A DNA stretch of 46,789 bases from an uncultured Porphyromonadaceae bacterium (GCA_947174305.1 CAMWIH010000002.1:1-46789), one strand, 5' to 3'. Counted from the first letter of the stretch, positions 11,637 through 17,992 are shown. Made by a program: numbers and translations. The notes: a model not told the origin generated them from the letters alone.

Positions 11637-12035
11637 TCATAATTCGGAAATTTCGAAGCAGGGGCAAGCCTTGGCTGCAAATTCCTTGTGCCCATGCAAA
11701 GTGGCTTCCGGAAATTCCTTCCTGAGCTTCGCCACCAGCTCCCTGAGAGCCCGCTTCTGCGCATCGGTGCGCGTATCCTTTGGAAGAAGATGTCGCGCAT
11801 CAAGTCCCCCCACATAACACACCCCGATGGAATTTTTGTTCTGACCAAGGCAATGCGCCCCAACCTCCTCAACCGGGCGACCAGCGTGAACACTGCCGTC
11901 GAGATAAACCACATAATGATATCCGATCGTGCGGAAACCGCGTTGCCGGTGCCACGACCGGATATCATCTACTGTTACCTCCCTCCCTTCAGGAGTGGCG
12001 CTACAATGCAGAATTATCTTATCTATCTTTCTCAT
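11637..12035 (-). CDS. N-acetylmuramoyl-L-alanine amidase (Amidase_2 type, endolysin-like)
   Basis: IILHCSATPEG...GYHYVVYLDG...LHGHKEFAAKACPCF. Confidence 0.88.
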   Translation of the reverse strand: MRKIDKIILHCSATPEGREVTVDDIRSWHRQRGFRTIGYHYVVYLDGSVHAGRPVEEVGAHCLGQNKNSIGVCYVGGLDARHLLPKDTRTDAQKRALRELVAKLRKEFPEATLHGHKEFAAKACPCFEISEL

Positions 12036-12288
12036 CTTCTTTTATTTTTAAATCATCCCTAACTATAATCTTCCTGCGGAAATCACCGCGCAAAGCATTC
12101 ACGTGTACCGAGATTCCCAATATCGAGCCCACGAAGAGTGAAATCTCCCCGAAAGCATAAAGCACCGAGGAATTGATCTCCCCCTCGGGCGGTGACACGA
12201 AACTCATAAAAAGCAATACAAGCCCGCACACCATAGTGCCTACGGCCAAGCCGTATGAAATCTTCTCTTTCGTTGTCAATGTCTTCAT
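12019..12288 (-). CDS. Small two-TM protein, holin-like
   Basis: Two hydrophobic segments; overlaps the amidase ORF as in holin/endolysin pairs. Confidence 0.55.
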   Translation of the reverse strand: MKTLTTKEKISYGLAVGTMVCGLVLLFMSFVSPPEGEINSSVLYAFGEISLFVGSILGISVHVNALRGDFRRKIIVRDDLKIKEDEKDR

Positions 12289-12322
12289 CTCCTCTTATAT
12301 ATTGCCATTCTTTTGAAATTCT

Positions 12323-12886
12323 TCATCCTCTTATATTCTTTATTATCTCCACTATCTTATCAAGAAGCCTCCCTTTCAGGGATGGAGGGAAAAGCAGCAT
12401 CCCCTCCTCAAATCGCGGACGCGGAATATACCCTCCCTCCGCAACTTTGCTCCCCGCGCCGCTACCGAAAATCTCCAAGGCACGTTTCCCATCTTTATGG
12501 GTCAGAGCCACCGCCGGAGAGGAATGGTTTGCGCCGCCTCTTCGCAGCCAGTGCCGCCGAAGGCTAACAGCCACATCGCCGGATTCAGCCACGTGCGTCA
12601 CGCCCTCCGGCCAGTCGCTCATCCTGATATACACCAGACGCATAAAATCATCTGGCAACAGGAAGAGAGACCCGGAGGTCGCTCCTCCAATCGGAAGCCC
12701 CTCTCCGAAATCACGTGCCTCTGCCGATAATATCACTCTCTCCGCGGCATCAACCATCACCCCCTTTATCAGGGAGCGAAGGTCGAACCAAGGGGAGCCA
12801 TACTCAACGGCATCATCAAGCACTGCAGGCGATTCATCAAGCCGAATCAGCACTGCCTCAACTATTTCATCTATCGAAATTCTCAT
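12323..12886 (-). CDS. Hypothetical phage-like protein, possible head-completion/adaptor
   Basis: 187 aa; position between capsid and lysis genes on the same strand. Confidence 0.5.
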   Translation of the reverse strand: MRISIDEIVEAVLIRLDESPAVLDDAVEYGSPWFDLRSLIKGVMVDAAERVILSAEARDFGEGLPIGGATSGSLFLLPDDFMRLVYIRMSDWPEGVTHVAESGDVAVSLRRHWLRRGGANHSSPAVALTHKDGKRALEIFGSGAGSKVAEGGYIPRPRFEEGMLLFPPSLKGRLLDKIVEIIKNIRG

Positions 12887-12919
12887 CTCTTCTTCACCCT
12901 GAAATCAAGCTTCTAAGAA

Positions 12920-13189
12920 TTATCTCTTCTCTTTCTTAAAGGCAACCATTCCGATTTGTGGAGAAACTTCTTCCTCCTCCGTCTCGATAAGCCGAATCTT
13001 CTTGCTCTTGAAATAGTGGCTATTCTCTATCATCTTCATCACAACAGGATTGCTGGTGGTGAAAGTGGCGGGAGTCACGCCATAGCCCGACAGGCTCCCG
13101 CCACTGAACCGCACCCTTACTATGTTGTGACCCGTAGGAATCAGGGCTATCCACTCCATCATCCCCATCACTCCGTAAGTTGCTTTCAT
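12920..13189 (-). CDS. Small hypothetical protein, phage cassette
   Basis: 89 aa, same strand, just downstream of the capsid gene. Confidence 0.5.
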   Translation of the reverse strand: MKATYGVMGMMEWIALIPTGHNIVRVRFSGGSLSGYGVTPATFTTSNPVVMKMIENSHYFKSKKIRLIETEEEEVSPQIGMVAFKKEKR

Positions 13190-13237
13190 CGCTTCTCAAT
13201 TTTTAAGTAATTAGTGAAATAAAATAATGTTTCCTAA

Positions 13238-14743
13238 TCATTCCGCTGTAATCTCCCCGGTGAAGAGACTCCACGTTTTGACCATGTCTCCATCTTCACT
13301 CTCCTCTACAGTCATCTTCCACATCTGACCGCTTCTCGCTTTCGGAGAAATCCCGGGGCAGTCGCACGTGAGATAATACACATCCCCCTCTTCGGCATCT
13401 GTCGGTGCCTCCTCACTGCTCCAGAGCTTTATGCCCAATGCTGAGCCGGTGGCGTGCTCGCTGTCTCCGTCAATCCAGATATGACAGCTCCCCTTCAGGG
13501 CGAGTGCATCCCAGATAAGGATTCCGTTTCGGGTTGCCTCCTCACCCTCTACACGGTCGGAGAAGCTATGTTCCGAACTATACACGTAATGCACCAGCCT
13601 GTCTTCTCCTATCAGTGCCCCGCTGTTGTTCCATCCAAGACGGTCGAGCGTGGGTTCGCGCTTGATCTCTATGTCACCGAATACGGTGTGGAAGTTTGTC
13701 ACCGTCCAGCCCAGGGAATTGGTCTTGGTGGTGATCTGAATCTCCGGATGCTTGCTGAAATCTATGCACTGAATCTGCTCAAGAAGGTTCTTTCCCGCAA
13801 GAAGCAAGGCCGACTTTGGCACATCCTCTCCGGTGAAGAACATCTTTGCCATGGCTATCACATCCTCAACCGTCCAGCGTCCCTTGTGCATCAGCTCGCG
13901 CTTGAACTGCCAACGCAAACCCTCGGTGCAATAAACATACTGAAAACCCATCCTGGGAACCTGCAACTTAAACTTCCCTGCGCGCCCGGCCCAGAGCGTA
14001 CGGTTACCTCTCACCTTGAAGTTCGCTATCGCCTGCTCGGCTATGACCGCCTTGGAGAATGGTATGCGTTTCTTCTGCGAATCGAAGTAGTCGCTCACAA
14101 CTTGATTCATGCCCCGTTTCTGCAGATATACCCGTGTGGGCTGAGGCACAATCAGGTCGGGATCAACCTCCTTCTGGGTTTCATAGAGAGAGTTGGCAAG
14201 GATTACGATTTTAGTTCCTGCCGGGATGCGCGGAATAAGGCTGACCTCATCTTCCGGGCTGTTTTTCTTACCATTCACCGCCCTCACTATCGGACAGTTT
14301 GTGGCATTATCCCGATCCACAACAAAGAGCATCAGGCTCTGACCTACCGTGGGATACTGCCCCGTGACATCATATCCGTCAATCCCTTTCACAAGTAGCG
14401 TGCTGTAGGGTCGTGGAAGGTTCTGGTCGGAAGGGGCGAGCGGGAGGATGGTCTGTGTGGCCGACTGCAACTCAATATCCTCGCTGACAGTGATCATGCT
14501 CCTCGGCTCATCAATCATGTAATGCTCCACTTCCGGACTGTTCACCTTCACCCTCTTCGCTTTCAGCATGAGGTTCATCAGAGGGGTGTCGTCGGAATTG
14601 AACCTGAATAGCTCCTCATCTATGTCGCTCTCTATGAAAGCTCCGGGATTGATACCTCCTGATGCCTCCGAAGCGCCTGTAACGGTTACTGCCTGGCCGG
14701 GAAGATGGTCGGATACTCCTGCATTTCCAATTGTTCTTTTCAT
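13238..14743 (-). CDS. Probable phage major capsid protein
   Basis: 501 aa; N-term GAFIESDIDEELFRFNSDDTPLMNLMLKAKR resembles Bacteroidales phage capsid-type proteins; downstream of an acidic scaffold-like ORF and next to terminase genes. Confidence 0.65.
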   Translation of the reverse strand: MKRTIGNAGVSDHLPGQAVTVTGASEASGGINPGAFIESDIDEELFRFNSDDTPLMNLMLKAKRVKVNSPEVEHYMIDEPRSMITVSEDIELQSATQTILPLAPSDQNLPRPYSTLLVKGIDGYDVTGQYPTVGQSLMLFVVDRDNATNCPIVRAVNGKKNSPEDEVSLIPRIPAGTKIVILANSLYETQKEVDPDLIVPQPTRVYLQKRGMNQVVSDYFDSQKKRIPFSKAVIAEQAIANFKVRGNRTLWAGRAGKFKLQVPRMGFQYVYCTEGLRWQFKRELMHKGRWTVEDVIAMAKMFFTGEDVPKSALLLAGKNLLEQIQCIDFSKHPEIQITTKTNSLGWTVTNFHTVFGDIEIKREPTLDRLGWNNSGALIGEDRLVHYVYSSEHSFSDRVEGEEATRNGILIWDALALKGSCHIWIDGDSEHATGSALGIKLWSSEEAPTDAEEGDVYYLTCDCPGISPKARSGQMWKMTVEESEDGDMVKTWSLFTGEITAE

Positions 14744-14838
14744 CTCTTTTAAGTTTTAGTGATTGTTATTAGTGATTATTTTTGCTGTTTTAATTAATGA
14801 TTATCAACCTTTATCGTCTGTTTTGAGAGGTTAAGGGA

Positions 14839-15411
14839 TTATCTTCTCGCACTTTCCGCCAAGGAGAATATTCCACGGTTCCTCTTCTCCGAGCTTCCTC
14901 CACGACTTTCAAGGTGAGGCACCCCGTCGCTCGCCCCGACGCTTCGCATCTTTGCCTCGATATTGGCATTGCGACCCCTCAGCTCAGCTTCCCGAACCTC
15001 CTCGGCCAGACGGCGGTCATAACCCTGACCCTTCATCAGCACCTCCACCATATCGAGTGTGGGCTTCCCATTGCGGCATGCGTTCCCGATGTTGAAAAGC
15101 ATCAGGAGCGAGGAATCTATCTCTTCAGCCGATACGCCGCTCCCTCTCGCATATCCCTCCAATGAGGCCATAAAGTTTTCCATCTTGTCATCAATCCGGA
15201 AATCCTTTTCATCCTTGAGCAGGGCAAAGGTCTGGGGATAGATAGCGAACAAGCGTTCTATTTCTCCCAATCTTTCCTCATCTTTGCTCTCTGTTTCCTC
15301 TTTTTTCGGCTCCTGATTCTCTGTTTCCTCATTTTTAGGCTCTTCGCTCTCTTCCATCGGATTTTGTGTTCCTTCAAACTCAAAATCATCTCTCATCTCC
15401 ATTTTTTCCAT
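14839..15411 (-). CDS. Acidic scaffold-like protein (start trimmed to Met-13 of the ORF)
   Basis: E/K-rich N-terminal half, directly upstream of the capsid gene. The called ORF start at 15447 lies next to a -7-like element (15444-15452). Confidence 0.55.
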   Translation of the reverse strand: MEKMEMRDDFEFEGTQNPMEESEEPKNEETENQEPKKEETESKDEERLGEIERLFAIYPQTFALLKDEKDFRIDDKMENFMASLEGYARGSGVSAEEIDSSLLMLFNIGNACRNGKPTLDMVEVLMKGQGYDRRLAEEVREAELRGRNANIEAKMRSVGASDGVPHLESRGGSSEKRNRGIFSLAESARR

Positions 15412-15505
15412 ATCTGTATTCTTGTTTCGTTTTTGATTACGTTGCAAAATTACAACCGGATTTTGCAGCAGAATCCTTAAATCTTTACAAATGCTAAAAA
15501 TATTA

Positions 15506-15537
15506 TTTGCATTGTTAAATATTTATATTAACTTTGC
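15506..15537 (+). promoter_or_regulatory. Bacteroidetes-type promoter for the terminase operon
   Basis: TTTG (15506-15509), 19-nt spacer, TAACTTTGC (15529-15537). Confidence 0.7.
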
Positions 15538-15575
15538 ATCCGATAACGATATTTTCACTATTACTTATTTTATTT

Positions 15576-15983
15576 ATGAGAAAGATTGGAGCAGTATCCG
15601 AATTCGGATCAAAAAGAGACGCGGAGCTTTGGCAAGCCTACCGCCGCGCAATCGCCACATCGGGCGTGGTTTCAACAGAGGCCCTTTACGAGATGACGGC
15701 CTGTTCGCCGGCTTCCCGTTTCTGGGTGAGCGAAAGGCGCGCATCGGAGGTGATGGGGGCGATAATAAGGGGCGTGTCGATCAGCTTTATGAGCCCCACA
15801 CGGCAAGAGATGTTTCGTGAAATATTCAACCGTTTCATCCGATACAGGAGCAAGTTCCCCAAATCATCCATCTATGAGGCAACTTTCCATGCAGTCAACA
15901 CCCCGGCCCCGAAATTCTATCTCACTCCCAAAACAGTAAAAATCATCCTCTGCCGTTTAAGGCGTCAAAGACTTGGAAAATGA
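15576..15983 (+). CDS. Small terminase subunit-like protein
   Basis: Basic, helical, about 135 aa, immediately upstream of the large terminase. Start trimmed to MRKIGAVSEFG, because the called start lies within the -7 element. Confidence 0.55.
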   Translation: MRKIGAVSEFGSKRDAELWQAYRRAIATSGVVSTEALYEMTACSPASRFWVSERRASEVMGAIIRGVSISFMSPTRQEMFREIFNRFIRYRSKFPKSSIYEATFHAVNTPAPKFYLTPKTVKIILCRLRRQRLGK

Positions 15984-17992
15984 ATGCAGAAGCTATAATA
16001 ATTGAGAATGAACGGCGTAAAGCCCGTAATTCAGCACCCTTTGATCCCATCTCGGGGCGTGGCTCAGTGGGTCCGCGTTTAAAGATTACGAGGAATGGCG
16101 CGGAATTGTGGGTGCCTGAGACCATGCGGCAAATACCCGGGCTCGAAACTCTTTCCGACACAATCTTTGAGCGCAAACGCATTCTTCACGATTTCCCTTA
16201 CTGGGCCGCAAAATATGCCTACATAAAGTCGAAAGGTGGTGGGGATGACCGTTTGTTTGTGCTGAACCGCCCCCAACGAAAGCTTGTGGAACAGCTCGAA
16301 AGCGTGCGCAGGGCCGGAAAACCTATACGTCTCCTTTTGTTGAAGGCAAGACAATGGGGTGGCTCCACTTGCGTGCAGCTATATATGATATGGTTGCAAC
16401 TGGTCCACGAAAAGGGTTTGAATTCACTCATAATCGCTCATCAGGCTTCGGCCACCGATGAGATCAAGGATATGTTCGACCGCCTTATGCTCTCCTATCC
16501 CCTCGAGTTGCTATATGATGAGGATGAGGAACACGGAGAAAAGGAGCCAAAGACTGTCGGAGTGGGGAAATCAAGGACTATAACGCGCGTGCCTCAGCGT
16601 AAATGTAAAATCAAGGTGGGTTCTGCCGAACGTCCCGATTCCTGCCGCGGGGGAGACTATAATCTCGTTCACTGCTCTGAGGTGGGTATATGGAAAGCCA
16701 CGGCGGGAAAGTCGCCCGAGAGGATTGCCCGCGCCGCCTGTGCCGGAATACTCCTCTCCCCTTTGACCATGATTGTGTATGAATCAACAGCAAATGGCAC
16801 AGGCAATTTCTTCCATCGTGAATATGAGGCGGCCAAGAGTGGATCATCTCAATTTGACCCTCTCTTCATCTCTTGGTTTGACATTGATCAGTATGCTCTC
16901 GAACTCAAGGATCCGCGCGGATTCGCCGAGCGATTGCTGGTCAATAAAGACTCTGAAGGGGCTGTCTCCGACCGTCAGCAACCCGGTTCCTATCTATGGT
17001 GGCTTTGGGAAAAGGGTGCCACGCTCGAAGCCATTGCCTGGTATGTGGCCGAACGCTCCAAATATTCCGATCACGCGTTGATGGCCGCCGAATACCCTTC
17101 TGACGATGTGGAGGCTTTCGTGCACTCGGGGGCAAGCGTTTTTGACAAGTATAAGGTGGAGGATCTTCGGAAAGGGTGTCGCACACCTCGCTTCACCGGG
17201 GAGATTGATTCTCCGCTCAAGCCTCTCACCGGCCTTATCCCCGACTCCGGTTTCAGGAAACGTCAGCTTGCTGAAGTGGAGTTTTACGCAGGTGCAGGTG
17301 CCTGGAAGATTTGGGAGACTCCACAATATTCCTCCGGGTTTGAATCAAGATATGTGGCCGTGGTTGATGTCGGTGGACGCTCCGCTCAGTCTGACTGGTC
17401 GGTAATAGCGATTTTCGACCGTGAGCCGATGTTGCGTGGCGAGGGTCCCACGGTGGTGGCTCAATGGAGGGGGCATACGGATTTCGACCTCCTCGCATGG
17501 CGCGCCGCTTTGGGGGCTTCAATCTATGACGACGCACTGCTCGTGATCGAGAGCAACTCAATCGAGACACACGACCCGGCACGGAACACCGACGGCGACC
17601 AGTCGGGATTCTTTTTCAATCGTTTGCGCGACATATACCCAAACCTCTATTCCCGTCAGCGGAGCGAGGAGGATATCATGAGGAAGGCACCCCGTAAATT
17701 TGGCTTTCACACAAACCTCTCCACCAAGCCGCTAATTATCGCGACATTGGTGAAAGTGATTCGTGAGGGTCTTTACACCGAACGTGACTCTGACTGCATA
17801 GATGAATTCCTCGCCTATGAACGCAGGCAGAACGGAAGCTACGGTGCGATAGAAGGCTGTCACGACGACCTCCTGATGACACGCGCCATAGGCCTACATA
17901 TAATATTCCATGAACTTCCGGTGCCCGTGGCCCAAGCCATGAGTCATTCATCCCGGCAGAGGCCTCTCTCCTCTTCCCTATCCTCGTGGTGA
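15980..17992 (+). CDS. Phage terminase large subunit
   Basis: Walker A-like LLKARQWGGST; MIVYESTANGTGNFFHREYEAAK; RNase H-like nuclease motifs VVDVGGRSAQSDWSVI, LLVIESNSIE, CHDDLLMTRAIG. Confidence 0.88.
   Translation: MNAEAIIIENERRKARNSAPFDPISGRGSVGPRLKITRNGAELWVPETMRQIPGLETLSDTIFERKRILHDFPYWAAKYAYIKSKGGGDDRLFVLNRPQRKLVEQLESVRRAGKPIRLLLLKARQWGGSTCVQLYMIWLQLVHEKGLNSLIIAHQASATDEIKDMFDRLMLSYPLELLYDEDEEHGEKEPKTVGVGKSRTITRVPQRKCKIKVGSAERPDSCRGGDYNLVHCSEVGIWKATAGKSPERIARAACAGILLSPLTMIVYESTANGTGNFFHREYEAAKSGSSQFDPLFISWFDIDQYALELKDPRGFAERLLVNKDSEGAVSDRQQPGSYLWWLWEKGATLEAIAWYVAERSKYSDHALMAAEYPSDDVEAFVHSGASVFDKYKVEDLRKGCRTPRFTGEIDSPLKPLTGLIPDSGFRKRQLAEVEFYAGAGAWKIWETPQYSSGFESRYVAVVDVGGRSAQSDWSVIAIFDREPMLRGEGPTVVAQWRGHTDFDLLAWRAALGASIYDDALLVIESNSIETHDPARNTDGDQSGFFFNRLRDIYPNLYSRQRSEEDIMRKAPRKFGFHTNLSTKPLIIATLVKVIREGLYTERDSDCIDEFLAYERRQNGSYGAIEGCHDDLLMTRAIGLHIIFHELPVPVAQAMSHSSRQRPLSSSLSSW

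Follow-up and report, generated by a model that had tools for sequence, protein, structure and literature searches.

The eight-gene cassette described here is part of a system that the Muribaculaceae have domesticated from a temperate phage of the podovirus type and that is passed on vertically, its genes being dispersed over several loci of which the cassette is one. It most likely belongs to a gene transfer agent (GTA), a reading to which we assign a probability of roughly 0.6. The DNA analyzed (the window; 46,789 nucleotides) is the entire contig C2 of a MAG (G000) that is 88% complete. The cassette, at 11637-17992, comprises eight intact genes accompanied by one flanking small ORF, nine ORFs in total (Table 1). 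From 15411 downwards the minus strand encodes an acidic scaffold-like protein, the capsid protein, p89, p187, a two-helix protein, and an amidase, while the plus strand encodes the small terminase (TerS) followed by the large terminase (TerL).

Table 1. Features of the cassette, with positions numbered from the first nucleotide of the window
Feature	Position	Strand	Evidence and remarks
N-acetylmuramoyl-L-alanine amidase (endolysin)	11637..12035	-	PF01510 (Amidase_2) 2.4e-15; phrog_822 8e-58
Two-helix membrane protein, 89 aa, holin-like by position	12019..12288	-	two predicted membrane helices
p187, head-to-tail adaptor (tail tubular A / SU10 + crAss001 barrel type)	12323..12886	-	phrog_22135 2e-11; AlphaFold; PDB matches
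p89, small conserved head-module protein	12920..13189	-	shorter than phage homologues
Major capsid protein, HK97 fold (predicted)	13238..14743	-	PF17236 (SU10_MCP) 1.2e-5; 9in6; Foldseek
Acidic scaffold-like protein	14839..15411	-	phrog_22323 2e-12; listed ORF end 15447
Bacteroidetes-type promoter TTTG-N19-TAnnTTTG, upstream of terS	15506..15536	+	consensus match only
Small terminase TerS	15576..15983	+	phrog_27246 9e-32; listed ORF 15534-15983
Large terminase TerL	15980..17992	+	phrog_2 1.6e-15; ATPase and nuclease residues intact

All of the ORFs that an earlier note on this DNA had read as intact are present, and the neighbors are those that it named: a TPR/AraC regulator, a 132-aa ORF, and aroB. 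Its identification of a capsid, a scaffold, a terminase pair, and an amidase is upheld by profile matches and, for the capsid, also by the model fold. The scaffold more likely starts at the ATG near 15411 and TerS at ATG 15576. Sites matching the promoter consensus number five in the window, where 0.53 are expected. The TPR and AraC-type regulator (window:9434-11098) adjoins the cassette and is missing from that place in the closest relative, G563, which makes a dedicated cassette regulator unlikely. Within the interval there is no portal, integrase, or replication gene, and the flanks contain only short chance-like repeats and no attachment-site pair.

The capsid protein passes the SU10_MCP cut-off, and its family profile matches the solved major capsid protein 9in6 (3e-5). 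Its AlphaFold model (pLDDT 81) folds as a predicted HK97-type capsid, for which Foldseek reveals VP1 and crAss001 capsids as matches (1e-20 to 1e-13). Phages BKO1-TP3 and BF1-TP2 encode homologues of the scaffold-like protein where a scaffold gene would be placed. TerL possesses a Walker A motif at residues 122-130, together with E234, D463, D472, E524, D629, and D630. The 89-aa two-helix protein, which is kept at the aroB locus of G563, G559, L151, and L189, is a putative holin, judging from the position of its gene; the amidase shows 99% identity to its G563 counterpart (dN/dS 0.06). AlphaFold modeling of p187 (pLDDT 90) gave a structure whose best 13 PDB matches are portal, adaptor, or tail-barrel proteins of short-tailed phages, the best of them being adaptor or tail-barrel proteins from SU10, crAss001, VP1, and GP4. 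Among its viral matches are proteins that bear the names head-to-tail adaptor and tail tubular protein A. Since p187 is an adaptor, the cassette holds a neck component and not a head alone; the structural modeling proposed in the earlier note, run on the capsid protein and p187, yields this adaptor, and no portal lies in the interval.

The portal is found elsewhere in the genome. A profile search of G000 reveals one, at C120:301-1764 (3e-204), which belongs to P22_portal (7.8e-45) and stands alone amid an aldose epimerase, a HAD hydrolase, and a tyrosine recombinase of the XerD-like type. The profile of phrog_32516, a conserved phage protein, identifies a shortened homologue of 416 aa on C90, between metG and pckA, the product of which is a putative tail or neck protein. 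In G563 this homologue adjoins pckA, with about 12 kb separating it from the cassette; L151 and L189 likewise have metG, the phrog_32516 homologue, pckA, and next the cassette and aroB, in that order. At the portal and phrog_32516 loci, examined along with the window, no adjacent integrase or replication gene was found, and a non-exhaustive search of G000 found no receptor-binding or ejection proteins. The claim that the cassette is without portal and tail genes holds for the window but not for the genome, which encodes this portal and the phrog_32516 homologue; the window itself carries the p187 neck adaptor.

These genes are nearly universal in the family. Among 297 Muribaculaceae genomes the portal is present in 283, TerL in 276, the capsid (profile A5) in 275, and phrog_32516 in 268, these family counts including some full prophages. 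The numbers for the 204 high-quality genomes are 197, 195, 193, and 190, respectively, so that all four genes occur together in at least 163, a bound computed from the single counts. Approximately one copy per genome is found in more than 90% of Muribaculaceae genomes. In a sample of other Bacteroidales families (six genera and one single genome), portal and capsid are present in 18/18 TerL-positive and 0/20 TerL-negative genomes. In all, the particle genes are common to 29-30 genera and several families. Whole genera of families f22, f28, f59, f67, f87, and f108 (L028-L043) bear a third TerL clade; their portal and capsid genes are present, usually not adjacent, and their portals are full length. 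These may represent a separate or less reduced domestication.

The particle genes adjoin housekeeping genes and are often hundreds of kilobases apart. For instance, on the single 3.34-Mb contig of G463, TerL lies at 0.94 Mb, the portal at 1.36 Mb, and the capsid at 1.89 Mb; in G235 capsid and portal are adjacent, with TerL 950 kb away. Several species of the window's genus have the capsid on a different contig from TerS-TerL. G551 and G429 possess a compact portal-TerL-TerS-scaffold-capsid-p89-p187 set immediately before rimP-nusA-infB. The gene-neighborhood comparison suggested earlier places the cassette next to aroB in one subclade only (G563, G559, L151, L189, and G472); outside it, the cassette lies beside rimP-nusA-infB or is split among several loci. 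The chromosomal place is kept across species even though their TerLs are just 63-94% identical. A chimeric MAG contig is an unlikely source of this arrangement, which is seen again in other, independent MAGs and in the genome of an isolate, Isolate-036 (Harlan) (L160, probably G472). Synteny of TerL flanks between genera carries no weight as evidence: the pairs are few, and nearly as many are estimated by chance.

Active temperate phages of Bacteroides, approximately 65 kb in size, show the ancestral layout. BKO1-TP3 (PQ571269), BS-TP4 (PQ571277), and BF1-TP2 (PQ571263) have genomes of 64-68 kb and TerL identities of at most 58%. The gene maps of BKO1-TP3 and BF1-TP2 resemble the cassette in showing homologous scaffold-capsid genes divergent from TerS-TerL, and in these maps a portal adjoins TerL; BKO1-TP3 also encodes the phrog_32516 protein. 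Unlike the window, these phages are contiguous and carry genes for replication and lysogeny, portals of full length, and giant polyvalent proteins. In public records two of the phage TerLs (L405, PQ571269.1:37872-39986; L406, PQ571263.1:40117-42144) are mislabelled "tail spike protein," and the capsid proteins of the same phages carry DUF2951/DUF5309 names. Besides its cassette, G563 contains a full related prophage (G563:C5; L244-L245), whose portal measures 648 aa and whose polyvalent protein exceeds 3,500 aa.

Phylogenetic analysis of TerL places the cassette type in a clade of 46 tips (support 0.979), apart from the full prophages beside it, and 0/46 tips have an adjacent full-length portal. 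The tree requires 14 label changes, versus 43 when labels are shuffled. The TerLs found throughout the Muribaculaceae and those from other families fall into separate clades that branch deeper, which implies at least two domestications. In 15/39 sampled genomes of the window's genus, its own included, the cassette-type TerL is the sole TerL, which reads as replacement of an older set.

Some of the proteins have become shorter. Domesticated portals measure 432-581 aa versus 644-709 aa in prophages, and the median length of p89 is 83 aa in domesticated loci versus 190 aa in phages. In ten of the species sampled from the genus of the window (G340, G376, G403, G416, G440, G449, G479, G543, G577, and G586; L415-L424) the sole TerL is an ATPase half, the nuclease half being lost or degraded; Walker A (KARQWGGST) is intact, and portal and capsid genes are still present in those genomes. 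In G440 a nuclease fragment is encoded separately, on a different contig (L426). This suggests decay or a different use in that branch. A domesticated particle with another job, such as killing or competition, phage decoy or interference, or stress-induced lysis, for which gene transfer is not the selected function, would suit the lysis genes within the cassette, the shortened portal and phrog_32516 proteins, and a nuclease-less branch that keeps capsid and portal. We consider it unlikely: the ATPase and nuclease sites kept in most lineages point to real DNA packaging and cutting, and PADLOC returned no defence-family match, which likewise removes a defence system from consideration.

The particle genes are under purifying selection. 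The dN/dS comparison advocated in the earlier note gives, against G563, values of 0.035 for TerL, 0.025 for the capsid, 0.059 for TerS, 0.055 for the portal, and 0.12 for phrog_32516; the value for aroB is 0.049. They are also co-inherited with the host in a vertical pattern, their distances correlating with those of Obg, a housekeeping GTPase (Mantel r: capsid 0.78, 10 genomes; TerL 0.75, 8; portal 0.84, 6). Between the window and G563 (window:11152-19161 against L110) there is a sharp dS mosaic: the small ORF, amidase, two-helix protein (TM2), p187, and p89 differ by a dS of 0.02-0.07, and scaffold, capsid, TerS, TerL, and aroB by 0.9-2.0. The breakpoint lies near the 3′-end of the capsid gene, and the mosaic indicates that the cassette locus recombines. 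Decaying prophage remnants, widespread in the family by coincidence, would account for the phage origin, which is certain, with active relatives and full prophages in existence, and for the degraded appearance of genus-mates with a nuclease-less TerL. Such remnants are improbable given roughly one copy in over 90% of genomes, intact ORFs, dN/dS of 0.025-0.12, a constant chromosomal place at 63-94% TerL identity, and ATPase and nuclease residues of TerL that are invariant in all 73 (46+14+13) domesticated tips; we reject them on the grounds of selection and conservation.

A capsid-forming satellite that borrows the tails of a helper phage, which the earlier note had also entertained, is very improbable. 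Satellites of the cf-PICI type encode a capsid and packaging module of their own along with an integrase and replication genes, and they spread horizontally. The cassette is likewise a compact head and packaging module, and some genomes (G563, G429, and G513) also contain full related prophages; however, it is without integrase or replication genes, its neighbors are housekeeping genes, it occupies fixed places beside aroB or rimP-nusA-infB in a vertical and not a horizontally moving pattern, and the portal and phrog_32516 protein are encoded on the chromosome away from it. A conserved non-phage capsid function is similarly disfavored. An encapsulin-like compartment does not fit the co-conservation of terminase, portal, and adaptor and is rejected, and so is a complete, contiguous prophage of 50-70 kb with portal, integrase, and replication genes, because the portal lies on another contig amid housekeeping genes and aroB directly flanks the cassette.

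The domesticated phage-derived particle or DNA-packaging system that the earlier note had listed first is thus strongly supported, and a GTA remains its most probable form. As in GTAs, there are capsid, portal, and terminase genes of Caudoviricete origin; integrase and genome-replication genes are lacking in the window and beside the portal and phrog_32516 genes of its genome; the genes are vertically co-inherited under purifying selection and lie at several chromosomal loci, a trait common to GTAs though not universal. A GTA hallmark, a TerS without its DNA-binding domain, is not seen: TerS (135 aa in the G563 orthologue) aligns full length with phage TerS, with no domain loss seen. In this reading, particles would form, carry chromosomal DNA, and transfer it. 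The host would turn on the divergent promoters; scaffold and capsid protein would assemble on the portal, whose gene lies on another contig; TerS/TerL, hydrolyzing ATP, would pump DNA into the head and cut it; p187 and the phrog_32516 protein, whose gene lies beside pckA, would close the neck; the two-helix protein and amidase would lyse a few producer cells; and the particles would bring host DNA to relatives. Together the conserved genes are those of a short-tailed particle, one that packs DNA into a head and lyses the host. With dispersed genes and no integrase or replication gene at the loci, such a particle could not take up its whole gene set in a single package, which is how a GTA works. 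The fuller history has slightly better than even odds in our view: a family-wide Bacteroidota GTA that goes back to a lineage of short-tailed temperate phages, with two or more domestications in Bacteroidales and genes scattered singly over the chromosome, the second domestication (the cassette clade) having displaced the older set in the window's genus and the terminase of a sister branch having lost its nuclease.

RcGTA is siphovirus-like. By comparison, the present set has a P22-type portal, an SU10/VP1-type capsid, and a short-tailed-phage adaptor, and no sequence kinship between the two was found. What it shares with the RcGTA-type GTAs of Alphaproteobacteria is vertically inherited, phage-derived head and packaging genes at multiple loci and the absence of replication and integration genes (PMC9662315, PMC11841831). 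The nearest demonstrated case is FpGTA of Faecalibacterium, a podovirus-like GTA of a gut anaerobe, found throughout the genus and encoded in two operons approximately 125 kb apart (PMC12946183). Both sets occur in gut anaerobes and comprise terminase, portal, scaffold, capsid, and lysis genes at separated loci (PMC12946183), whereas the present one is found in another phylum, is more scattered, extends over 29-30 genera and several families, and is known from its genes alone. No Bacteroidota GTA was found in the reviews and literature searched, a scope outside which many subscription papers and preprints lie; if the GTA reading is true, this would be the first within that literature.

Muribaculaceae are dominant in the mouse gut. 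If the system is a working GTA, nearly every species of this major gut family would encode a built-in DNA-transfer particle. Such a particle would escape contig-based searches for prophages, its genes being dispersed in groups of one to eight. The system would further represent an independent phage domestication for which active parent phages are at hand, and which could be tested in existing Muribaculaceae isolates.
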